A stretch of 33,372 nt of DNA from Candidatus Methylacidiphilales bacterium (GTDB taxonomy: Bacteria > Verrucomicrobiota > Verrucomicrobiia > Methylacidiphilales > JAAUTS01). A program made the translations under genes and the position numbers. The stretch is taken from NCBI GenBank assembly GCA_028713655.1, contig JAQTNW010000039.1, positions 1 through 33,372 on the forward strand. The letters are read 5' to 3'. Below, one piece after another: positions 12,505 through 27,709 of the stretch (the first letter of the stretch is position 1; every line of letters begins with the position of its first letter). Below the pieces are notes generated by a model, which made no database searches, was not told the DNA's origin, and saw only the letters and a program-made list of their open reading frames with translations.

Positions 12505-12642
12505 GTTGCATTATTCCCCGATGATTTTGACAAAACCTTTCGACGCGGAAACAATTCGGAGTATTACTGAGTGTATTCTTAACATGGAAAGGGTTTTAAA
12601 TTTGATCGGATAGCTAGTTGGCGGTAGGAGGTTCATCTCCAA

Positions 12643-13419
12643 ATGAAAAAGAACCGTCATCGGAAGAAGCAACACTCCTCTTCCGAACGCCGTTCAGTTG
12701 CAGTTTCCTGGTTCGAGGCAAAAAAGCCGGTTCTCCAGTATGCGGGAATCTTTGCGGGCCTTGTGCTCCTTTTTGCCCTTCTGTCGCTGACCCCGGCTTA
12801 TCAATCGCATATGGTCCGGGAAGTGGAATGGAACGTGAAGCTGGCGCGGGGGATGCTGTCTCTCTTTGGAGGAGGCGCATCAGTGGTTACGGGGGCCACG
12901 TTTTCTCGGGAAACCGAAGCGATTCTCGAAGTCAAACCGGAGTGTTTCAGCCTGTATTACTGCTGGCTATTTTGCCCTGCGGTGCTGGCCTTTCCGGCTC
13001 CACTACTCTGGCGGTTTGCAGGAGCATTACTGGGGTCGGTGATTTTATTGACCATGAATGTTCTGCGCGTCGGAAGCCTCTTTTGGGTCGGCAGCTATTA
13101 TCCGGGCTATTTTACCGCCGCGCATGATCAGTTCTGGCCTTTGCTTTCGCTCTTTGTGATAGCCGCCTTGATGGGAGGATGGCTGTTGGCTCTGCAAGAT
13201 CCCGCCAGCCAACAGACCGTCCTCACCTACGAGGGCCTGGGGCGCGTGAAGACTTTGGTCGATGGCGTTGGCACGATCAACTGGACTTATGACGCTGAGG
13301 GCAACCCGACGGATGTCACTCAGAGTAGCGCTAACATCCACCGCACTTTTGACGACCTAAGCCGCTTGCACACCTGCACCGACACTTCCGGCATCGAGCG
13401 GGGCCTTACGGAGCTGTAG
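12643..13419 (+). CDS. Exosortase-like membrane protein fused to YD-repeat (Rhs) sequence
   Basis: Residues 1 to about 184 look like a small exosortase/archaeosortase, a membrane transpeptidase-like enzyme thought to process proteins with C-terminal sorting tags. There are about five membrane helices, and the expected catalytic set can be placed at C101 (PECFSLYY; C107 and C111 nearby), R142 (NVLRV) and H161 (AAHDQFWP). From about residue 185 the sequence changes abruptly to YD repeats (LTYEGLGRVKTLVDGVG, WTYDAEGNPTDVTQ, RTFDDLSRL), which belong to Rhs shell proteins and not to exosortases. A strong AGGAGG at 12626-12631 supports the ATG at 12643. The fusion looks like a recombination product. 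An alternative reading is that the enzyme still works and the tail is harmless. Confidence 0.72.
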   Translation: MKKNRHRKKQHSSSERRSVAVSWFEAKKPVLQYAGIFAGLVLLFALLSLTPAYQSHMVREVEWNVKLARGMLSLFGGGASVVTGATFSRETEAILEVKPECFSLYYCWLFCPAVLAFPAPLLWRFAGALLGSVILLTMNVLRVGSLFWVGSYYPGYFTAAHDQFWPLLSLFVIAALMGGWLLALQDPASQQTVLTYEGLGRVKTLVDGVGTINWTYDAEGNPTDVTQSSANIHRTFDDLSRLHTCTDTSGIERGLTEL

Positions 13420-16200: not shown

Positions 16201-17175
16201 ATGAAAAAAGGACCCATCTCCCAGTTCATCCAGCATCATTACCGTCACTTCAATGCGGCCGCCCTTGTGGACGCCGCAAAAGGCTATGAGGCCCATCTGG
16301 AGGCCGGAGGAAAAATGATGGTGACGCTGGCGGGCGCCATGAGCACGGCGGAGCTGGGGGTTTCCCTCGCGGAAATGATCCGTCAGGACAAAATCCAGAT
16401 CATCTCCTGCACCGGCGCCAACCTCGAAGAGGACCTGATGAACCTTGTGGCGCACAGCCATTACCAGCGCATCCCGGGCTATCGCGATTTGACTCCCAAG
16501 GACGAATGGAAACTGCTCGAGGGCGGCTTGAACCGGGTGACCGACACCTGCATCCCGGAAGAGGAAGCATTCCGCCGCCTGCAGAAACACATTTATGAAT
16601 TATGGAAAGCGGCCGACAAAAAAGGCGAGCGCGCATTCCCGCATGAGTTCATGTACGAAATGATCCGCAGCGGCGTGTTGAAGCAATATTATGAAATCGA
16701 TCCCAAGGACTCCTGGATGATCGCTGCGGCTGAAAAGAATCTGCCGATTGTTGTGGGCGGTTGGGAAGATTCCACAATGGGCAATATTTTTGCCTCGTAT
16801 GTGATCAAAAACGACATCAAAGCCACCACGATGAAAAGCGGGATCGAATATATGGTCTTTCTAGCCGATTGGTATCGCAAAAATTCCGGGGGCAAGGGCG
16901 TCGGCTTTTTCCAGATCGGCGGGGGCATTGCGGGCGACTTCCCGATCTGTGTGGTGCCCATGATGTACCAGGATCTGGAATGGCACGACGTGCCGTTCTG
17001 GTCCTACTTTTGCCAGATCAGCGACAGCACCACGAGTTACGGTTCCTATTCCGGCGCCGTGCCGAATGAAAAGATCACCTGGGGCAAACTGGGAATCGAC
17101 ACGCCGAAATTCATCGTGGAGTCCGACGCCACCATCGTCGCGCCTTTGATTTTTGCGTATTTGCTGGGCTGGTAA
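16201..17175 (+). CDS. Deoxyhypusine synthase family protein
   Basis: True deoxyhypusine synthase moves an aminobutyl group from spermidine to a lysine of eIF5A. Bacteria lack eIF5A, and bacterial homologues are thought to act in polyamine chemistry, such as homospermidine formation. The 324-residue protein shows VTLAGAMSTAELG, ISCTGANLEEDL, the GGG(I)AGDFPICVV segment and SDSTTSYGSYSGAVPNE. These are followed by TWGK, whose K296 aligns with the catalytic lysine of the eukaryotic enzyme. The ATG at 16201 is well placed. No other polyamine gene is adjacent, so the substrate is not set by context. Confidence 0.9.
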   Translation: MKKGPISQFIQHHYRHFNAAALVDAAKGYEAHLEAGGKMMVTLAGAMSTAELGVSLAEMIRQDKIQIISCTGANLEEDLMNLVAHSHYQRIPGYRDLTPKDEWKLLEGGLNRVTDTCIPEEEAFRRLQKHIYELWKAADKKGERAFPHEFMYEMIRSGVLKQYYEIDPKDSWMIAAAEKNLPIVVGGWEDSTMGNIFASYVIKNDIKATTMKSGIEYMVFLADWYRKNSGGKGVGFFQIGGGIAGDFPICVVPMMYQDLEWHDVPFWSYFCQISDSTTSYGSYSGAVPNEKITWGKLGIDTPKFIVESDATIVAPLIFAYLLGW

Positions 17176-17854: not shown

Positions 17855-18474
17855 ATCCCCTCTATTAAGAGGGGCAGAAAGAGAGCGCAGCGACCGCTTC
17901 TGGGTGTGTCCTTCTCTATCAAGAGGGGTCGCAGATCCGGCGGCTGCCAGACGTGGTGCGTGGAGCGCATTACCAGCAAAGTATGCTGACCGGGGCTGTT
18001 CGTCATCGCGAGGCCCATCTGGAACACTCGCGACGCATGTCGGAGCTGGGCGGCGGCGACCCAAAATTCTTATCCATCCGCTCGCGGCGACGACTGGAGT
18101 TCGTCGCGGGAACTACCATTAAATTGCCATTTCATTTTCCAGAATAATACTTATTCCCAGCGATTCGTGTGTCTGACGCTCATCTGTAACCAAAAATTAA
18201 CAATGGGAAGCCTGGATTTTCCGTTTGTGGAACGCGTTGTCATGGAGGCGCTTGCGATACCCGGATGATCCCTCCCTGGGAATATTCACAGACCTGGAAA
18301 AATTCTGTTTGCATCTTGATAGAAGATATAGCAGTACGATGGCGCGCAAGAAAAACACAAGCATGCCTGCGTCCGGCGACAATGCCGCGGTTCGAGTTGG
18401 CTCTCGGACAAAAAGAGCGGGGAGGAGGATGGGCTGCAGGCTTGGAAGGAAATATTGAAACCGAAGTTTATCGA
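17855..18474. other. Gene-poor, repeat-bearing spacer before the Rhs core gene
   Basis: No recognisable gene lies in these 620 bases; the short frames (for example one starting ATG at 18340 with a basic, 39-residue product) carry no family signature. The left end is a dispersed hairpin repeat (17856-17928). GC-rich, imperfectly repeated 'tcgcgacg/ggcgacg' text follows to about 18110, then an AT-rich stretch at about 18115-18200. The Rhs core gene starts at 18475 without a clear Shine-Dalgarno. Confidence 0.6.
17856..17928 (+). repeat. Dispersed hairpin repeat, left copy flanking the Rhs locus
   Basis: The element starts with a perfect 7 bp hairpin, CCCCTCT-atta-AGAGGGG (17857-17874). The text GGGGCAGAAA, a variable piece, AGCGACCGCTTC and GGGTGTGTCCTTC follow, and a second CTCTATCAAGAGGGG ends it. 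The first 59 bases align, with about ten differences and small gaps, to the reverse complement of 23447-23508. Confidence 0.75.
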
Positions 18475-19320
18475 ATGAAAACAAAAATAGGATTGCTGGC
18501 CGCATGTGCGGCGGTTGCATTTGCCAGTATGAACCTCTCACAGGCCGCTGTGCCCGTGACGGACAACCTGCCCGGCCTGCCGGTTCAGGGGGCTGAGTAC
18601 TGGAAAGTGGTGGAACAGGAGCAAGCTGCCGTTCAGCAACCAAGAACTCAGAACTCCGAACCAAGAACGGCGCCCTCTGGCGCATTCTTCTACACCGGAA
18701 AGCCCTATGTCGCCGAACTGGGCGCGTACAGCTTCCAGTTCAGGAATTATGATCCCGAACTGCAGCGCTGGACCACCGCCGATCCCTCCGGCTTCCCCGA
18801 TGGGGCGAATAATTATGAGTATGCGCCTGTGCCAACTGCACAAATAGATACAAATGGATTAATAACCCTGATTGACAATCAACCTGGGCAAGCCAGTGGT
18901 GAATTTACAACCCTCTTTAATCTGGGAGGATACGCAACGTATAGTGGATTTAGCTTTGCAGATGCGAATGATAATTCAGGTACTGTTTATCTTTTTTCAA
19001 ATATTGTTGGAGTTAATACACCATTTGCGACAATGCAATCCTTAAATCTAACACCAGGGATCGATGTGTACTCAACCGGTAGCGGATTAAACTATAATAT
19101 TACAGGATCAAATCAGCTAACTGGAGCAAACGGAACTGTCGGAACAGGATTTACATACAATGTAGACGGTGTTGGAACTGATACACTAACATTTCATGTA
19201 TTTGTTGACTATGCATTACATGCGTCGTCAGTTTCCGGTGGCGGCACGGATGGAATATCTTGGAGTGATGCGATAAGGACAGCCTCTTATGCGCTGGGAA
19301 CATTTGTTTTTCAGGAATAA
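18475..19320 (+). CDS. Exported Rhs-core fragment with AT-rich C-terminal tip domain
   Basis: The ATG at 18475 gives a 281-residue protein with a clear signal peptide (KIGLLAACAAVAFASMNLSQ, then AA). Residues 71-128 match the last half of the Rhs-associated core: FFYTGKPYVAELGAYSFQFR, NYDPELQRW, ADPSG, NNYEYAP, ending IDTNG where normal Rhs proteins have 'DPLG'. The YD repeats and first half of the core are absent. Residues 129-281 form a Gly/Thr/Asn-rich, beta-type domain of unknown function, encoded by DNA that becomes AT-rich exactly at the end of the core. This shell/tip boundary is typical of polymorphic Rhs toxins. The linker at residues 55-65 contains a short tandem repeat. Confidence 0.72.
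   Translation: MKTKIGLLAACAAVAFASMNLSQAAVPVTDNLPGLPVQGAEYWKVVEQEQAAVQQPRTQNSEPRTAPSGAFFYTGKPYVAELGAYSFQFRNYDPELQRWTTADPSGFPDGANNYEYAPVPTAQIDTNGLITLIDNQPGQASGEFTTLFNLGGYATYSGFSFADANDNSGTVYLFSNIVGVNTPFATMQSLNLTPGIDVYSTGSGLNYNITGSNQLTGANGTVGTGFTYNVDGVGTDTLTFHVFVDYALHASSVSGGGTDGISWSDAIRTASYALGTFVFQE
18638..18669 (+). repeat. Short tandem 'aaccaagaactcag' repeat inside a coding region
   Basis: Imperfect units of the form CCAAGAACTCAG, AACTCCGAACCAAGAAC lie in frame within the linker of the exported Rhs-core protein and encode QPRTQNSEPRT. Such units are usually intergenic, so this looks like a repeat captured by a gene. Confidence 0.5.
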
Positions 19321-19340
19321 TCCGTATCAGGGATAAAGAC

Positions 19341-19688
19341 ATGCAGATTTTAAGCCATTATTTAGCAGCCAATAAGTCGTTCATTCTCTCAATAGCTGCT
19401 GCAATGCTTATGTTGGCGGCCTATTTAGATATTGGTGATAAATTCTTAATAAATGGGGGACTTTTGCTGATTCCACTTCTGGCCTTGGCGGCACTTTTTT
19501 GGTCGGGTGACTACAAGAACACAAAACCAGGAGCTGCTACTGCCATAAAAATCTTGACAGCATTTACCTTACTTTTCTTTTTTGGGGGTATTGCAGCAAT
19601 GCCTTATAGAATAAAGCAAGCGAAACTTCTGTCAGAACAGACACGGATTGATTATTTGAAAAATATAGACTGGGAAAGAAACAAATAG
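19341..19688 (+). CDS. Small membrane protein, candidate immunity protein for the Rhs tip
   Basis: The 115-residue protein has three membrane helices: SFILSIAAAMLMLAAYLDIG, a Leu/Ala-rich one near 41-54 and ILTAFTLLFFFGGIAAM. A short charged tail follows. No family is recognised. It begins 20 bases after the exported Rhs-core gene and shares the AT-rich composition of the tip, which is where an immunity gene would lie. If so, the tip would act at or in the membrane or in the periplasm of a sister cell. This role is inferred from position alone. Confidence 0.6.
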   Translation: MQILSHYLAANKSFILSIAAAMLMLAAYLDIGDKFLINGGLLLIPLLALAALFWSGDYKNTKPGAATAIKILTAFTLLFFFGGIAAMPYRIKQAKLLSEQTRIDYLKNIDWERNK

Positions 19689-19833
19689 ATAAAAGACTGT
19701 GATGAGCGGCGCGGTTCCGAGCAGCTTCTCGATTGCTGTCAAACCAGTCTTGGTGCTCAATGCTTGCTGACAATGAGTGAAGCATATCATCCTGTGTAAA
19801 GACAATCATAAGACATAACGACTTGCTGGAATA

Positions 19834-22800
19834 ATGTGCATTTTCCGTTTCATCTTTGTTTTGTTCTGCTGTAGCTTTAGCGTCGCCCAAGCCCGGGAAC
19901 TGGGCCTGGTGCAGGGCGATCTGAGCTGGCAGTTGCAGGAGTCCATTCGTCCGGAACCGAACGCGCAGGGCTTCCCTCTGTCGTTCAGGCTTGTTTACAA
20001 CAACAAGAACCCGAACGACTCTCTCTTCGCCAACTTTCAGTGCCTGGCCCTGGACTCTTCCGTGGATTTCACGGACACGAATACGTTCGACTGGTACACG
20101 ACCCAGGGCGAAAAGCTACGCTTTCGCTTCAATGGCAAAACGAAGACATGGTCGGACTTTTCGCATCAGTGGCAGGCCATCACAGACCGTGATGAGGTGG
20201 TGATCTACAACGCGGCGGGCTGGTGTTATTTTTATAAAAGCGGGCGCTTGCAATTGCTGGATTCGCCCACAGGCCGCTCCCTGGATTTTATCTACAAGAA
20301 CAAGGACCTGGTTGAAGTACGACTGGAAGGGGCGAGCCCGAACACACCCCGGTCTTCGACCGCCTCTTCTGGCGCTGGAGGGGATTATATTACGCTGATC
20401 GCGTTGATTTGCGATCAATACCATCGCTGTACAGATTTCGATGTTCAGGGGCAGGCGCATCATTTCGTGTATGAATCGCGGCGGGACGGGCTTCTCTTGT
20501 CGTGGGAACAGCCTTCGAGCAAGCGCTTGGACTTTGCTTATACCGATATTGGGGTGCTGGTTGAAATTCAGGAATGGAAGCGGAACCCGGCAGGTCAGTT
20601 GGCCAAAGTGGACAAGCCCAAGAAGTTTGTCTCCAAATATTTCCCCCCGGATGTCCTGCACCATTCGCTCAATTCGGAGGACGACAAAAAAATCCCGGCT
20701 AATTGGCGGCTGATGGACGACGGAACTTATTCCTACACGTACAATGACCGGCCGAAGGGCAGGTTTTCCTCAAAATTCAGGCGACCCCGGGGCTATTCCG
20801 AAGTTACGATGGAAGATAATAACGGATTGAAGCAGTCGATGATCGTGAATCCGGAAGAAGCTGTGGAAACGGCGGTGAATTCCTATGGGCAGGCGTTCAA
20901 AACCTATTTTTATCGCGCGCCGGGGAAGCCTTTCAACGGGAAACTGTGGCGGATCGAGCAGGCTGGCGTGACGATTCTCGAAAACATCTATGACCCCAAG
21001 ACCGGCTGGCTGGCGCAAAGCATCGATGCGAACGGGATTTCAACGTATTACGATTATGATCCTGGCGTCACGAGGAAAAGCGCCAATGCCAAGCTGAAGG
21101 TTGGCGGCAAGACATTGAGCATGGCGGGCTTTGATCCCAAGCCTGTCAGGGTTTCGCAGGGGACCGACCGCAAGACAGCCGAGGTCCGGCAGGAAGTTGA
21201 ATATGATGAAAAGGGCCGGGTGTTGGCCAGGACGGACGAGTCAGGCAAAACGACCCGCATTGTATATTCCGCCTTGGGCGAAGTGGCGCAGGTGATTCCG
21301 CCGGACGGTCCAGCGCTGAAGTTCACGTATGATGCCTTTGGGCGGCCCACGGAGTTGTCTGTGGCCGATCCCAAGGATGCGTTAGCGCAACCGAGGCGCA
21401 TCCAGGTGGAATATGACAATTTGGGGAGAGTGTCGAAGCAAACAATGCCGGACGGAATGGCGACAGAATATTCCTACGATGCGCAGGGGCATGTGCATGA
21501 AGTCAAGCAGAAGGGCGTGGTTGTGGCGTCGTACAGTTATGACAGGGACGGCCATGTTGTGGAGCAGGTTGATGGGTTGAAGCGGAAGAAGAAGTTGGAA
21601 TGGGACGCCAAGGGGAACCAGGTGGCGGAAATATTGCCGGACGGCAGCGCAACGCGGTTTGAATATGACGCGCAGGGGCGGCGCACAGCGCAGATCGACG
21701 GCGACGGAAACAAGATCACGTTTGGTTATGACAGCCATGGGAAGCTGGTCCGCCAGGCCAACGCGCTGGGGCAGGTTTTGACTTGGACCTATGACGAGCG
21801 CGGACTACCGGTGGAGCGCGCCAACGGGGTGCAAAAGATCCGCTATGTGTATGACAATAAACACCGACTGGCGCTTTTGGATTATGGCGCGCCCGGACAG
21901 CAGGTGGCGTATTCGTATGATGAGCGTGGACGACTGGCGATGGAGCGTACGCCGACGTTCCGGGTGGAGCGGTTTTACGATGTCCAGGGCCGGGCCAGTG
22001 CGCTTCGCATGACCGATCTGCGCGCCAATTATCAGGAAGCAATTGGAGGGACTGCCGCGCCGACGCTCGCAGCTCCTGAGCAGGTGATCCGTACGAGCTA
22101 CAATTGGCGCGGTCAGAAAACGGCAGTCACGCTGTGCGAGGCTGTTTTGAATGACAAAACCGTTGGAAAGCCGAATTACAAACTGCTCCAGCAAACCGAG
22201 TATGTGTATGATTCGAAAGGGCGCCTGTTGGAGATCCGGTCGGATGGGAAAAGCGTGATTAAAAACAGTTTTGACGCCAATGACCGCCTGCTTTTGAGGG
22301 AGTATGGGAACGGGATGCGGGCGGCTTACGCCTACAATGCGGCGGGCATGTTGGTAAAAGAGGAAATTTCCGGCGGGCCGCTCAAAACACCGCTTTTGTA
22401 TCTGCTCGAGTGGGATGCCGCAGGGCAACTAGTCCGGAGGCGTTGGGACAATCGCGCGATGGCGTATGAGTATGATCCGGCGGGACGACTGGTGAAGGTG
22501 ACCGGGGATGGAGGGTATAAGCAAGGGCAGGTTTTGGAATCGTACACGTATGACAAGGCCGGAAACATCATAGAAAAAACTGTGGATGGCACAGCCACTG
22601 CGCTGTCGTACAATGCCGCGAATCAGCTTGTCAGTTCGACTTCGGGCGGGAGAACATTTAATTATGCCTATGATGCCGCCGGGAGAATGACGGGAACCGG
22701 TACGGGCACGGAGTCTGCCAGGTCGCTTTATGGCTGGCTGGATAAAGTGATTGCCTTGGAAAAAGGGGCAATTCCCAGTCAGCCTGATCCAAGTCCCGCG

Positions 22801-23361
22801 CAGGGGCAGGCATTGCAGGCATCGGCGCCGTCCACTGCATCCGCGAATCTTTTGCAGCCCGTAAGTTTTACCACCGACCCGCAAGGGTCGCGGCGTCTTG
22901 GGTTTGATTATTATCCGGACGGCCATTTGGCCGTAAAAGGTTTGTTGCCATCCGCCGGCGGAGCAGAGCAGGCGGCGGCGTTGAAATCGTCGGGTTTGGA
23001 GTCGTTCTGGGGCCGGATGAAATATTGGTTTGGAGCGGGCGAGGAACAGCCATTGGCGCCGAGCCTTGACCAAATCCGCATGCAAGTTGCGGAGCGCTAT
23101 GTCTGGGACGGATTGGGATTGCTGCGGCGTAACAACGAGGTGTATGTCATTGAGCCGCATGCCAACGGCGGCGCGGTCGTGGCGTCATCGGTCATTGGGA
23201 AGCCGGGCGAGATCAAGTATTACATCAATGATTTGTTGGGAACGACTCTGGGGGAAGTGACGCCGCTGGGGGTGAGGGAACAGGATCTGAGCTCGTTTGG
23301 GTTGCCGAAAAAGACGGAGGCGGATGTTTCCAAGCCGGAGCCGATCCATGTGCCGCAGTGA
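19834..23361 (+). CDS. Large exported YD-repeat (Rhs shell) protein lacking the core C-terminus
   Basis: The 1,175-residue protein has a Cys/Phe-rich signal peptide (CIFRFIFVLFCCSFSVAQA) and an N-terminal domain to about residue 400. About two dozen YD units follow to about 945, such as YDEKGR, YDAFGR, YDNLGR, YDERGR and YDPAGR. These units form the spiral beta shell that encloses toxins in Rhs and teneurin proteins. Near residue 1134 the Rhs core begins (YYINDLLGTTLGEVTPLG, SSFGLPKK), but the protein stops 30-40 residues later without the YTG...RYYDP...DPxG part or any tip. That missing part is encoded upstream, in 18475-19320. The PAAR and VgrG adaptor parts of type VI Rhs proteins are absent; export appears to be Sec-dependent. 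Confidence 0.85.
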   Translation: MCIFRFIFVLFCCSFSVAQARELGLVQGDLSWQLQESIRPEPNAQGFPLSFRLVYNNKNPNDSLFANFQCLALDSSVDFTDTNTFDWYTTQGEKLRFRFNGKTKTWSDFSHQWQAITDRDEVVIYNAAGWCYFYKSGRLQLLDSPTGRSLDFIYKNKDLVEVRLEGASPNTPRSSTASSGAGGDYITLIALICDQYHRCTDFDVQGQAHHFVYESRRDGLLLSWEQPSSKRLDFAYTDIGVLVEIQEWKRNPAGQLAKVDKPKKFVSKYFPPDVLHHSLNSEDDKKIPANWRLMDDGTYSYTYNDRPKGRFSSKFRRPRGYSEVTMEDNNGLKQSMIVNPEEAVETAVNSYGQAFKTYFYRAPGKPFNGKLWRIEQAGVTILENIYDPKTGWLAQSIDANGISTYYDYDPGVTRKSANAKLKVGGKTLSMAGFDPKPVRVSQGTDRKTAEVRQEVEYDEKGRVLARTDESGKTTRIVYSALGEVAQVIPPDGPALKFTYDAFGRPTELSVADPKDALAQPRRIQVEYDNLGRVSKQTMPDGMATEYSYDAQGHVHEVKQKGVVVASYSYDRDGHVVEQVDGLKRKKKLEWDAKGNQVAEILPDGSATRFEYDAQGRRTAQIDGDGNKITFGYDSHGKLVRQANALGQVLTWTYDERGLPVERANGVQKIRYVYDNKHRLALLDYGAPGQQVAYSYDERGRLAMERTPTFRVERFYDVQGRASALRMTDLRANYQEAIGGTAAPTLAAPEQVIRTSYNWRGQKTAVTLCEAVLNDKTVGKPNYKLLQQTEYVYDSKGRLLEIRSDGKSVIKNSFDANDRLLLREYGNGMRAAYAYNAAGMLVKEEISGGPLKTPLLYLLEWDAAGQLVRRRWDNRAMAYEYDPAGRLVKVTGDGGYKQGQVLESYTYDKAGNIIEKTVDGTATALSYNAANQLVSSTSGGRTFNYAYDAAGRMTGTGTGTESARSLYGWLDKVIALEKGAIPSQPDPSPAQGQALQASAPSTASANLLQPVSFTTDPQGSRRLGFDYYPDGHLAVKGLLPSAGGAEQAAALKSSGLESFWGRMKYWFGAGEEQPLAPSLDQIRMQVAERYVWDGLGLLRRNNEVYVIEPHANGGAVVASSVIGKPGEIKYYINDLLGTTLGEVTPLGVREQDLSSFGLPKKTEADVSKPEPIHVPQ

Positions 23362-23508: not shown

Positions 23509-23563
23509 TTGAGCCTCCTAATGAACATATCGGGCAGGATGTTGAAAGATAGAATGTTAGCTA

Positions 23564-23791
23564 AAACGGCAACGCCGTTTCGTCTTTCAGCCCAGGGTTG
23601 GGCCGCTTGCGGGACTACCCTGGGTAAAATCAAAAAATCATCCCGAACCCTGAATGGGTTCCATCCTCCTATCGCCCGTGCCACCCCACCACGACTCCTT
23701 CAGAGTTGGGGTCAATTTTTTACAGATACCGATGCGAATGGAAAAAACATCCGCTGCGCAAGATGCGCAGCGGTGCGGGCAGGATGCCCGC
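23564..23791. repeat. Array of short hairpins
   Basis: Stem-loops follow one another: AAACGGC-aac-GCCGTTT (23564-23580), CCCAGGGT...ACCCTGGG (23591-23624), GAACCC...GGGTTC (23645-23661), GCTGCGCA...TGCGCAGC (23753-23771) and GCGGGC...GCCCGC (23775-23791). The intervening 'gactccttcagagttggggtc' adds a weaker one. The array ends at the first transglutaminase-like gene and may overlap its true start. Confidence 0.65.
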
Positions 23792-25050
23792 GCTCCCGGA
23801 GATACAGGGGATTCCTCCTTGCCGGTCTCGTTAGCTTTTGTTTCCTGCTGTCCAGGGCTGAGGCGGAGTTGTTGACATTGGATGAAGCGTTAAAGCGGTC
23901 AGGAGAAAACCGTCCGCAGCTTGAACAGGCGTTGAAGGAAACGCCGGGCCAGGAGATGGAACTGCTGATTCGCGGCGCCCGACAATATGATCTTGTTAAT
24001 ATTACGGCGGAGCATTTGAAGGACGACATTGCGTATGCGCGGAAGGCGCGTGAAGAAATGCCGTGGGGCAGGGAGATCCCGGATGAACTTTGGCGGAACT
24101 GGGTGTTGCCGTATCGGATAGCCGATGAGGACCTGGACGATTGGCGCCCGGAGTTTTACGAGATGCTGGCGCCTTTGGTGAAGGAGGCGAAAAGCAGCAA
24201 GGAAGCGGTTTTGCTCATCCACAAATGGCTGTGGCAAGACGTGCCGGGAGGCCGGGTGCGATTTGAGGTCTCGGAAAATCGCGATCAAACGCCGAGGCAA
24301 CTGCTTCAGCAAATCAAAATCGGACGCTGCTTTGAAATCAATCTATTGTTCACCGCGCTCTTGCGCTCGGCGGGCATTCCGGTCCGGCATACGGGCCCGC
24401 CCTGGTGGACGATGTGGGGGTCGTATCATTACTGGGTGGAGTATTGGGACACGGAATCGAAGACGTGGTGTTCCATTGAAGGTGCCAACGCAGATCCCGA
24501 CGGCTTTATGGCGGTGAATCAGACCCTGCCCAGATCAGGGAATACAGCGTTTGCGGCGGCCTATGCGTTAGCCGCCTATGGCAATGAAGCCGATCCGATT
24601 GGGCGGGAGGCCTGGGGTGGCGCAGTTCCGGCTGATTGTGCCTATCAAGCAACCGGCAAGCTGCAATTGGCATTCATGAACGCGGGATCAGGCAAGGCCG
24701 CAAACTATGCGGTTTATGTCTGGAGCAATTCGGCCTGGCGCCCGGTGGCATTGGGTTCGACGGACAAAATGCACGAAGTGAATCTGGCGCCAACAGCCGG
24801 ACGCTATCCTTATCTGGTGACGGCATCGCTGGGAAAAGCCACGGCCTGCGCCTTGGCGGAAGTAAAGCCGGGGCAGGACACATCCGTGACCCTGATGGAT
24901 TCACCGGCGGGCCCGGATTTGACCGTGGAATTTGTTTCCAAAAAAATGCTGGAAGAGCAGCAGAAAAAAGACGCTGAAACAAAAAAGCAAAAGGAGAAGG
25001 ACGATAAGAAAAAGAAGAAAAATCCAGTCACGGGAGCCGCGGCGGGATGA
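23773..25050 (+). CDS. Exported transglutaminase-like protein with Cys-His present
   Basis: The domain has the transglutaminase/papain-like layout: GRCFEINLLFTALLRSAGIP with C186, then YHYWVEYW with H219, and TWCSIEG with E236 where the third residue (normally Asp) is expected. Cross-linking, peptidase or amidase action on proteins or peptidoglycan is typical of the family. The hydrophobic segment GFLLAGLVSFCFLLSRAEAE looks like a signal peptide. The start is uncertain: the open frame extends back to ATG 23509, but that part is made of hairpin repeats, so I use the in-frame GTG at 23773, which leaves a short Arg-rich leader. The C-terminus is a Lys/Glu-rich coiled tail. It overlaps the next gene by four bases. 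Confidence 0.75.
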   Translation: MRAGCPRSRRYRGFLLAGLVSFCFLLSRAEAELLTLDEALKRSGENRPQLEQALKETPGQEMELLIRGARQYDLVNITAEHLKDDIAYARKAREEMPWGREIPDELWRNWVLPYRIADEDLDDWRPEFYEMLAPLVKEAKSSKEAVLLIHKWLWQDVPGGRVRFEVSENRDQTPRQLLQQIKIGRCFEINLLFTALLRSAGIPVRHTGPPWWTMWGSYHYWVEYWDTESKTWCSIEGANADPDGFMAVNQTLPRSGNTAFAAAYALAAYGNEADPIGREAWGGAVPADCAYQATGKLQLAFMNAGSGKAANYAVYVWSNSAWRPVALGSTDKMHEVNLAPTAGRYPYLVTASLGKATACALAEVKPGQDTSVTLMDSPAGPDLTVEFVSKKMLEEQQKKDAETKKQKEKDDKKKKKNPVTGAAAG

Positions 25051-26258
25051 ACATAAATCCTCCAAAATTAATATTGTTAGGGCTGGCGGTGTGGCTTGTT
25101 CCTCATGCGGAACTGGAAGCCCAATATATGGATTCAACGGCGCAAACCGAGTCGCAGGCCTATCTGGACAAAGTCAGGTCGGAACTCGGCGCCGAGGCGC
25201 TGCAATCCATGCCGGAACAGCATGTTCGTTTTCTCGCGCAAAGCATGGGACGGCTGGACCGGGCGACAGTGCCATCCTCCATATTCATGGAACATCTCCG
25301 GCTGGCGGAAAGCGTGCGGACGCGATTTTATACGGACATGCCCGATGAAGCGTTTTGCAGTTATGTTCTTTCCTTCCGGATCCGGGAGGAGTTGTCTTCG
25401 CATGCGGGATGGCGCGGCCGGTTTAAAACCGAACTCGATCCGGTGCTTGGCGATGAAAAGGATCCCGCTGCCGCTGCGGCGAGGATATTCGATTGGGTGT
25501 CGGGAAAAATAAAACTTTACGGAAAACTACGCTCGTATCCGCTGAATCTAAAAGGCGATTTGGACCCGTTGACGACCCTGAGAGGCGGATGTGGAAATGA
25601 AATCGACGCCGCGATTTTGGCAGTGGCGGCTTTAAGGTCGGCGGGTATTGCCGCGAGGATCGTCTATGCGCCAGTGCTTGCGGATGAGGACGGTGGAAAA
25701 GTCTGGGCCGAGTATCGGACGCGCGACGGATGGGCGCCGTGGGCGCCGTCGTTGGCGCTTGATGCCTTGGACGCCTCCGTGCAGGGGATTCCAAAAATAA
25801 AAGCCGGCATGCACAGGGATTGGTTAAAGAAAGAATTTGCGGGACGGTTCGGCTATGTGCTGGCAAATCCGCAGCGTCCGGCCAACATCACATGCGCATA
25901 TACATCTGTGACGTCTATTTGGATGAGTCCAAAACCCCTGGACAAGGAACCTTTCAATTGCACGCTCATGTTGTGGTGCAGGGGGCGGTTGCAACCGTTG
26001 ATGGGCAGGGACATTTACAACCCCGAGCCGGATAATTCCGCAGCAGGCGTGGGTCCCGGGAAGTATGTAATTGTGGCGGGTGACATAAAATCTGTGGGGA
26101 CCCTGAAGCAAATGCAATTGAATGCGGGTCAAACGGGATGGTATGTGATGGATTTCGAAAAGGGCGAGGCGCAATTTCAGATTGCGGATAAAAAACCCGC
26201 CTTTTTCGAGTGGGACCCCGAGACGCTGCCGCCAACGGATCCGGTCAAGGATTGGTGA
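25047..26258 (+). CDS. Exported transglutaminase-like protein, apparently degenerate
   Basis: The 403-residue protein has a signal-like N-terminus (PKLILLGLAVWLVPHA). Its domain keeps the fold signature LRGGCGNEIDAAILAVAALR, SAGIAARIVYAP and VWAEYRTRDGWAPWAP. C182 is present, but the 'HAW' position reads KVW, so K218 replaces the catalytic His, and the following 'DPT' reads APS. It may be a non-catalytic binding partner of the preceding protein. The ATGA overlap (25047-25050) indicates translational coupling of the pair. Position in the genome and matching domain type suggest a duplication. Confidence 0.75.
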   Translation: MNINPPKLILLGLAVWLVPHAELEAQYMDSTAQTESQAYLDKVRSELGAEALQSMPEQHVRFLAQSMGRLDRATVPSSIFMEHLRLAESVRTRFYTDMPDEAFCSYVLSFRIREELSSHAGWRGRFKTELDPVLGDEKDPAAAAARIFDWVSGKIKLYGKLRSYPLNLKGDLDPLTTLRGGCGNEIDAAILAVAALRSAGIAARIVYAPVLADEDGGKVWAEYRTRDGWAPWAPSLALDALDASVQGIPKIKAGMHRDWLKKEFAGRFGYVLANPQRPANITCAYTSVTSIWMSPKPLDKEPFNCTLMLWCRGRLQPLMGRDIYNPEPDNSAAGVGPGKYVIVAGDIKSVGTLKQMQLNAGQTGWYVMDFEKGEAQFQIADKKPAFFEWDPETLPPTDPVKDW

Positions 26259-26302: not shown

Positions 26303-27709
26303 GTGTTTTATTATTATAACGAAGCCTTAAGATGGTCGTTTGGGTTTGACAACCCGAACAAGGCTGGCGCTTTCATCGCCACCGTGCTGCCGCTTTTTTG
26401 GTTGTGGCTAGTTTTGTCTTTCCGGGTTTCAATCCGAGGGTGGCGAGTTTTGCTGCTGTGCCTGGCCTTTGTGGGTTTGGAATCCGCATGTTGGTTCCTG
26501 TTCAAAACCTATTCGCGGGGCGGGTTGGTGGCGGGTGTCTCGGCTTTTGCCTATATCGGCTGGATGTATCGGGGCAGGTGGGGTTGGTCTGTCTGGTGGA
26601 TTGCCGGGATTGCCATGTCGCTGCTTTTTGCGTCGGGCCTGGGATCGCGCAGTTTGGAAAAAGCAGCGGACGCTTCGACTGGCAACCGCCTGTTGCTATG
26701 GAAGGGAGGGCTGCAAATGCTGGCAGACAGGCCTTTGGGGGTCGGTTGGGGAAATTCAGGGTATGAATACATGCAATGGTATCAACCGCTGGAAATCGGG
26801 GCGGGGTATCGCACCCTGGTCAACAGCTACCTGACTTTTGCCGTCGAAGGGGGAATTTTTTTGTCGGGCCTGATTTTTGCGGGCGTGTTTTTCCTGGTTT
26901 TGTGGACGCGGCCCGCGCGGAGCGGGCAGTCACAGGAGGGCGGTAGGGCAGGTTTTGCCACTTGGGTTGCCTGCCGCGCGGCGTTGCTGGCGTTCGCGTT
27001 TGCCGGATTTTTCAGCACTACCATGGAGGAGCCGTTGTTATGGATTGCGCCTCTGGGATGCCTGGCGTATTTGATATTTCCGAGTATAAGATCGGCGGGC
27101 CGGATTTCGACAGGCGTTTGCGCGTTGCAAGGCTTGGGCTTCTCGTTTGTTCTGATTATATTTTTGTGGAGCGCCGGTTGTTATTTTAACTCCAAGGATT
27201 CCCTGTGCCGTGGCTTTGATTCGCGCCGCGGCCAGGTTTTGCTCAAGCCGCGCGGCTCTGCTTCTCCGAACAAGCTGTGGGTTTGGGCGGATGAGCGTAT
27301 TTTGGGCGACGCCAGTGGCAGGCCGCTGAGGAAGCTGTGTTCGGATACGGGATTATTTCTGAATGTCGGGAGCATCGGGCAGGATGGTGCGATACCGGCG
27401 GATGCGAGGGTTCTGGTGATGGGAGGCCAGGTTTCTCATGTCAATCCGGTGGGTGTAGGTCTCTTGGTGTTGCTTTGTCCGGGGAATGTTTCCGAGGAAC
27501 GCGCACTTGAATTGTTAGGCATGGCAAAATATGCGATTCTAATGCTGCCGGAGTCCGGAGCCCGGGGAAATATCGAATGGTGGCGGGATCTGGCGCTGAG
27601 GCCCGATCTGCGTGAAAAAACCGAAGTCGAAATGCTGCCCCTGGTTTCGGAGCGTGTGGACGTGGCCTGGGACAGGGTGATCCATCTCTTGCGGAAGGCA
27701 GGGAAGTGA
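26303..27709 (+). CDS. O-antigen ligase/polymerase-like membrane protein with extra C-terminal domain
   Basis: The first ~300 residues form about eight membrane helices. The family patterns are FGFDNPNKAGAF, TYSRGGLVAG, GNRLLLWKGGLQMLADRPLG and LVNSYLTFAVEGGIFLSGL, as in the Wzy_C (O-antigen ligase/polymerase) family, whose members join glycans to lipid or protein acceptors. The usual 'HNxYL' reads VNSYL here, so the conserved His is absent. From about residue 310 a soluble alpha/beta-type domain follows (KLWVWADERILGD, ADARVLVMGGQVS) that I do not recognise. The start is GTG at 26303, because an upstream in-frame stop (26285-26287) leaves no ATG. It lies 44 bases after the second transglutaminase-like gene. 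Confidence 0.75.
   Translation: MFYYYNEALRWSFGFDNPNKAGAFIATVLPLFWLWLVLSFRVSIRGWRVLLLCLAFVGLESACWFLFKTYSRGGLVAGVSAFAYIGWMYRGRWGWSVWWIAGIAMSLLFASGLGSRSLEKAADASTGNRLLLWKGGLQMLADRPLGVGWGNSGYEYMQWYQPLEIGAGYRTLVNSYLTFAVEGGIFLSGLIFAGVFFLVLWTRPARSGQSQEGGRAGFATWVACRAALLAFAFAGFFSTTMEEPLLWIAPLGCLAYLIFPSIRSAGRISTGVCALQGLGFSFVLIIFLWSAGCYFNSKDSLCRGFDSRRGQVLLKPRGSASPNKLWVWADERILGDASGRPLRKLCSDTGLFLNVGSIGQDGAIPADARVLVMGGQVSHVNPVGVGLLVLLCPGNVSEERALELLGMAKYAILMLPESGARGNIEWWRDLALRPDLREKTEVEMLPLVSERVDVAWDRVIHLLRKAGK

Follow-up and report, generated by a model that had tools for sequence, protein, structure and literature searches.

Several described systems come close to the locus analysed here, a split Rhs toxin locus carried on a 33.4-kb contig of a Candidatus Methylacidiphilales bacterium (the window, which is the entire contig C39 of a 3.29 Mb host genome). 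The type VI secretion system (T6SS) effectors RhsA, Tse15, Tre23/Rhs1 and Tse5 are Rhs cocoons made as one polypeptide with T6SS docking parts, and the plug of RhsA holds the catalytic pair D1324/D1346, with cleavage at W1350 (PMC8765631). The BC cocoon of Tc toxins (TcB + TcC, for example YenB/YenC2 and TcdB2/TccC3) is a YD/Rhs cocoon of two polypeptides, the second of which bears a variable toxin together with the autoprotease core. Sec-exported polymorphic toxins with RHS repeats, WapA among them, have a signal peptide, an RHS region, a C-terminal toxin and an immunity gene, and solo toxin cassettes are also described, according to the accessible parts of Zhang et al. (2012, PMC3482391). 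Orphan rhs-CT/rhsI modules of Enterobacteriaceae have no signals for translation initiation or export, and they are expressed once fused to the main gene (PMC3967940). In the sections of this literature open to comparison, Rhs toxins have their shell and tip made as a single chain, unlike the pair of proteins in the window, and no description of an Rhs core split between two exported proteins was found in the accessible parts of the open-access literature, although one may exist elsewhere.

In the window, the YD-repeat shell and the end of the Rhs core are encoded by two genes, each with a predicted signal peptide. The upstream gene encodes a plug-tip cassette, or cartridge, in which signal peptide and linker are followed by the Rhs autoprotease plug and a variable, putatively toxic tip; the downstream gene encodes the shell (Table 1). 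Judged from profile matches and structural models, the two products are the pieces of one putative Rhs cocoon, and we consider it probable that the locus encodes an Rhs polymorphic toxin in two pieces, both exported by Sec, and that a common shell is closed after export by interchangeable plug-toxin cartridges.

Profile scans separated the two proteins. Apart from a weak match to the same end of RHS_core, the sole family matched by the cassette protein was TIGR03696 (Rhs_assc_core, E 1e-13, profile positions 13-76 of 76), and no YD repeats were detected in it, whereas the shell protein matched RHS repeats (E 7e-60) and gave no match to the Rhs core. No plug coding sequence was found 3' of the shell stop, the sole plug in the window being that at 18670-18867. 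An AlphaFold model of the shell, made with seven relatives, reached a mean predicted local distance difference test score (pLDDT) of 69, mostly above 80 in the repeat barrel, and matched Rhs cocoons both by Foldseek (E about 1e-44) and by VIA (Z 20.0 to Tse15 and 13.9 to RhsA). Its alignment to the solved cocoons ended at residues 1278 of RhsA, 1279 of Tre23 and 1331 of Tse15, just short of the plug, and a profile built from nine detached pieces matched core sequences in TccC3, RhsA, Tse15 and YenC2, in each case as far as the autocleavage site. The shell thus accounts for the cocoon until the plug begins, and the cartridge for the plug as far as the cleavage site, so the two pieces are complementary. 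An earlier note on this DNA, made from the sequence alone, had proposed this complementarity, together with a shell lacking the remainder of the core and a separate upstream signal-peptide gene supplying it, and had placed the three open reading frames where we find them. Its estimate that the shell stops some 30-40 residues into the core did not stand: the stop falls after the '...LSSFG' strand and ahead of '(F)FYTGKPY', within a loop that spans about 15 residues in unsplit relatives. Shell and core lie on separate polypeptides, from two genes, here and in related split loci, and are fused in other relatives.

The pair resembles the Tc BC cocoon in being made of two polypeptides, the second with core and variable toxin, and the plug of the cartridge matches the TccC3 and YenC2 cores. 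The junction differs, being in mid-shell in Tc toxins (YenC2 aligns to shell-model residues 580-1161), whereas the cartridge holds the last ~60 core residues only; it is thus a plug, and not a second polypeptide amounting to about half of the shell. In addition, no propeller domain was seen in the window pair, and both of its pieces have predicted signal peptides. With the T6SS effectors it shares the cocoon fold (VIA Z 14-20), the aspartate pair and the cleavage motif, but is encoded by two genes with signal peptides in place of one polypeptide with docking parts. The sheath protein VipB/TssC was absent from the host genome in a search whose control was positive, and neither shell nor cassette matched PAAR; the locus is not a T6SS Rhs effector, in line with the earlier note, which saw no T6SS adaptor. 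Sec-exported RHS toxins such as WapA are alike in their signal peptide-led RHS region, as far as the accessible text describes them, and differ in that here the core is split over two proteins.

The cassette core contains a D(22)D pair and a DxxG-L cleavage motif. The two residues, D103 and D125, have the same 22-residue spacing as in RhsA and were invariant across the aligned cassettes (alignments A1 and A4). Because this catalytic pair is conserved, autocleavage after assembly, the default expectation, is probably retained, which speaks against the suggestion of the earlier note that the tip may be joined to its shell after export rather than by autocleavage. By the same alignments, the predicted autoprotease travels with the toxin piece rather than with the shell. 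Loss of the Asp of an 'RYYD' motif, replaced by N or S in most copies, was considered as a change that might disable autocleavage and was rejected, the catalytic pair being the later D(22)D.

Under the two-piece reading, one gene would provide a hollow shell and one or more separate genes the cartridges, each composed of signal peptide, plug and tip and each followed by a gene for an exported immunity protein. After Sec export, the plug of a cartridge would dock in the open end of the shell, restoring the core and carrying the tip inside, whereupon the conserved Asp pair would cleave between plug and tip, as happens in one-piece Rhs toxins, and free the tip within the shell. Swapping of cartridges would allow one shell to be loaded with different toxins. 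If this is true, closing the shell in trans would allow loading to be separate in time and place, and the cell could keep one shell and a magazine of toxins with no need of recombination. Protein weapons may thus be loaded outside the cytoplasm in a way not recognised before. The split parts would also make encapsulation of Rhs cargo testable with separately purified components.

The host genome harbors one shell of this kind and four cassettes, on three contigs. Cassettes are also present in family members G005, where a separate shell lies downstream of a cassette, and G006, and in G045 of another family, where the shell ends 20 bases ahead of a cassette start. A scan of about 85,000 species genomes revealed relatives in many Verrucomicrobiota metagenome-assembled genomes, named as Verrucomicrobiales, Chthoniobacterales, Akkermansiaceae, Methylacidiphilales, Terrimicrobiaceae and Lentisphaerae; among the loci is one with six cassettes in tandem. 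Since close relatives share the split, the arrangement is not a recent local rearrangement, the possibility that the earlier note had set against its own proposal. Shells likewise end after the '..FG' strand in G005, L071, L073, L062, G387, G002 and the C-terminal piece of the G045 shell. The ratio of shells to cassettes was 1:4 in the host (G000), 1:2 in G005, 1:3 in G045, 1:1 in G384, 1:7 in G386, 1:3 in G388 and 1:3 in G391, leaving out weak matches to ordinary Rhs proteins and a C-terminal shell fragment in the G386 array.

The plug has retained the conserved Rhs-core residues FYTGKPY, R-Y-P and RW. The ratio of nonsynonymous to synonymous substitution rates (dN/dS) over signal peptide and plug of paralogue pairs, calculated by the simple Nei-Gojobori method and with some dS values near saturation, was 0.08-0.35, with one recent close pair at 0.53. 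Because these values are well below 1, the detached signal peptide and plug are under purifying selection. The cassettes also share a conserved start and a hydrophobic leader, with a Shine-Dalgarno-like GGAG ahead of the copies on contigs C79 and C33; the start given for the window is the conserved signal-peptide Met, the mechanical open reading frame beginning at 18265. These signals bear on the idea that the cartridges are orphan rhs-CT modules, silent themselves and maintained so that they can recombine into a full-length rhs gene. Extra tip-immunity modules do lie near the main gene, much as at enterobacterial rhs loci, and some of them stand behind 3'-end fragments of the shell (in G045, G386 and G388), but the cartridges are complete, predicted exported genes with conserved starts, Shine-Dalgarno-like sequences and signal peptides, which known orphans lack (PMC3967940), and the main shell itself carries neither a core nor a tip that could be exchanged. 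We therefore regard a silent reservoir as highly unlikely.

Unsplit, fused relatives were found at L070, L075, L076, L117 and L122. Mapped on L122, the split proteins break at three points: about residue 808 (G341, a single-contig genome), about 832 (G374 and G205) and about 1003-1013 (window type). All three types consist of complementary halves with a signal peptide on the C-terminal half, which in relatives can hold about the last 250 residues of the core. In the shell tree the window type formed a clade of its own (100/100); the other two types grouped in a second clade (97/96), and fused proteins lay between the two. Because the split types sit in separate clades among fused relatives and have different break points, the simplest reading of these sequences is that splitting occurred at least twice; a single split followed by re-fusion at other points would be awkward. 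Two cassettes of L063 (147-1163 and 2623-3603) retain a single YD repeat (VETFTYDSKGNLTHIKG), which lies between signal peptide and plug and may be the trace of an earlier split point. Another split type may be represented by L026 1537-2451 (G051), where a different protein with a signal peptide has a shortened Rhs core (SAYYDPETGTFLTRDPAGF) but no shell.

Several observations count against a two-piece toxin. The most serious is that no shell was found in the cassette-bearing genomes G270 (96% complete, with its cassettes at contig ends), G389, G004 and G006 (the last two 77% complete). The uptake of a tip by an already folded shell after export has no explanation, and the AlphaFold model of the cartridge had a pLDDT of 38 (13-row alignment), so that nothing was concluded from it. 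Pfam and NCBIfam scans of 44 tips found almost no families, most tips matching no known toxin family. The shell of G387 is shifted in frame near its 3' end in the assembly, and in G045 the YD shell is broken by a transposase gene (L039 6061-7026), with three intact cassettes downstream.

The genomes with no detected shell, the predicted signal peptide on every cartridge and the paralogues on other contigs would all suit cartridges that are stand-alone secreted toxins, their plug a leftover pro-domain or self-cleaving leader and the shell not needed. Yet this would leave a plug that keeps its Rhs-core residues under purifying selection, shells that end exactly ahead of the plug and persist beside cartridges in several lineages, and three split positions that always yield complementary halves, and we judge it unlikely. 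The interrupted G045 shell and the one frame-broken cassette of G004 could be taken to mean that the locus is a rearranged, decaying Rhs gene, the non-functional alternative of the earlier note. It is contradicted by reading frames that are intact, by dN/dS values far under 1 and by a boundary shared by several lineages of a well-supported clade, and is hardly credible.

Consistent with the variable tip predicted for the upstream gene, tips are highly variable across the family, most having no detectable similarity to each other. Two resemble Tlde1/YkuD L,D-transpeptidase toxins, one at E 1e-4, under the curated cut-off, and the other as its homologue, which fits envelope (periplasmic) targets. 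The gene closely behind each tip had an N-terminal hydrophobic segment, by a heuristic, in 34 of 38 cases, and this exported or membrane protein is a candidate immunity protein, the role suggested earlier for the small membrane protein of the window.

The tips share their last residue, which was Glu in 31 of the 32 window-type tips, the exception (L072) lying close to the end of a contig; in other subfamilies Glu usually takes the final or the penultimate position (E-x). Tips ending in Glu are found in the window (19315-19317) and at L010, L011, L036, L039, L062-L064, L067-L071, L073, L120, L121 and L186, compared with 9 of 144 neighbouring genes and none of 10 ordinary Rhs proteins. At the frequency of the neighbours, the chance of this count is about 1e-36, a figure that ignores relatedness, yet most tips are mutually dissimilar. 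An effect at the DNA level, whether an overlap with the following start codon or a site of recombination, was rejected: both GAA and GAG are used, the stop may be TAA, TGA or TAG, and the distance to the next gene varies. The shared Glu must be read by something common, be it the shell interior, the export step or the module of neighbouring genes described below. At L107, a short plug-less signal-peptide protein (12634-12990, minus strand) ending in ...TVEK lies beside cassettes with EK/ER tips and is perhaps a tip without a plug.

A Wzy_C membrane protein recurs at Rhs loci, both split and fused, usually beside two genes for alpha/beta hydrolases, which in the window (23509-26258) and at L123 (3556-5977) are replaced by two tandem transglutaminase-core proteins. 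The seven best matches to this Wzy_C group among 384 genomes of the class were all in cassette genomes and at the same loci; six of the seven are rows of the query alignment or overlap with it, and the informative part is that no equally close copy occurs elsewhere. Of 32 genomes with the Wzy_C protein, 13 were among the 37 with a cassette-profile match, compared with 3.1 expected (P 7e-7), in a test that ignores relatedness and counts among the 37 weak matches to ordinary Rhs proteins. The two genes lay on one contig within about 11 kb in 10 of the 13. The near-invariant Glu on otherwise unrelated tips and these neighbours hint at an extra step of toxin handling. It is conceivable, if doubtful, that a dedicated envelope module reads the Glu shared by several exported cartridges, any of which would close one exported shell in trans. 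Such a module would consist of a Wzy_C-family ligase and paired enzymes, either alpha/beta hydrolases or transglutaminase-like proteins, and would anchor, mature or release the cartridges.

Table 1. Features of the split Rhs locus in the window, and Wzy_C copies at related loci.
Feature	Coordinates	Strand	Remarks
Plug-tip cassette (cartridge) gene, 281 aa	18475-19320	+	Start shared with paralogues on C79 and C33
Predicted Sec signal peptide MKTKIGLLAACAAVAFASMNLSQAA	18475-18549	+	End approximate; read from sequence; near-identical in 3 paralogues
Detached Rhs core/plug, residues 72-129, FYTGKPY...DTNGL	18688-18861	+	Predicted cleavage after GL; TIGR03696, PDB plugs, RhsA alignment
Predicted plug catalytic pair D103 and D125	18781-18783 and 18847-18849	+	Dyad from alignment to RhsA
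Variable C-terminal tip, 152 aa	18862-19317	+	No Pfam match; last residue Glu281
Hydrophobic membrane protein, 115 aa, candidate immunity	19341-19688	+	Directly 3' of tip gene; position conserved, sequence not
Predicted exported Rhs/YD shell without plug, 1175 aa	19834-23361	+	Ends ...LSSFG (1152-1156) and a short Pro-containing tail
Transglutaminase-core protein 1, associated gene	23509-25050	+	Start uncertain; PF01841 E 8e-12; homologue near split locus L123
Transglutaminase-core protein 2, associated gene	25047-26258	+	PF01841 E 3e-14; homologue near L123
Wzy_C (O-antigen-ligase family) membrane protein	26303-27709	+	PF04932 E 2e-13; recurrent neighbour of split-Rhs loci
Wzy_C copies at other loci	L036 9666-11108; L041 1152-2570; L067 5873-7267; L068 6028-7440; L071 15333-16676; L120 3999-5360

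Elsewhere in the window, positions 16201-17175 encode a protein of the deoxyhypusine-synthase family, with a score far under all curated cut-offs for named functions.
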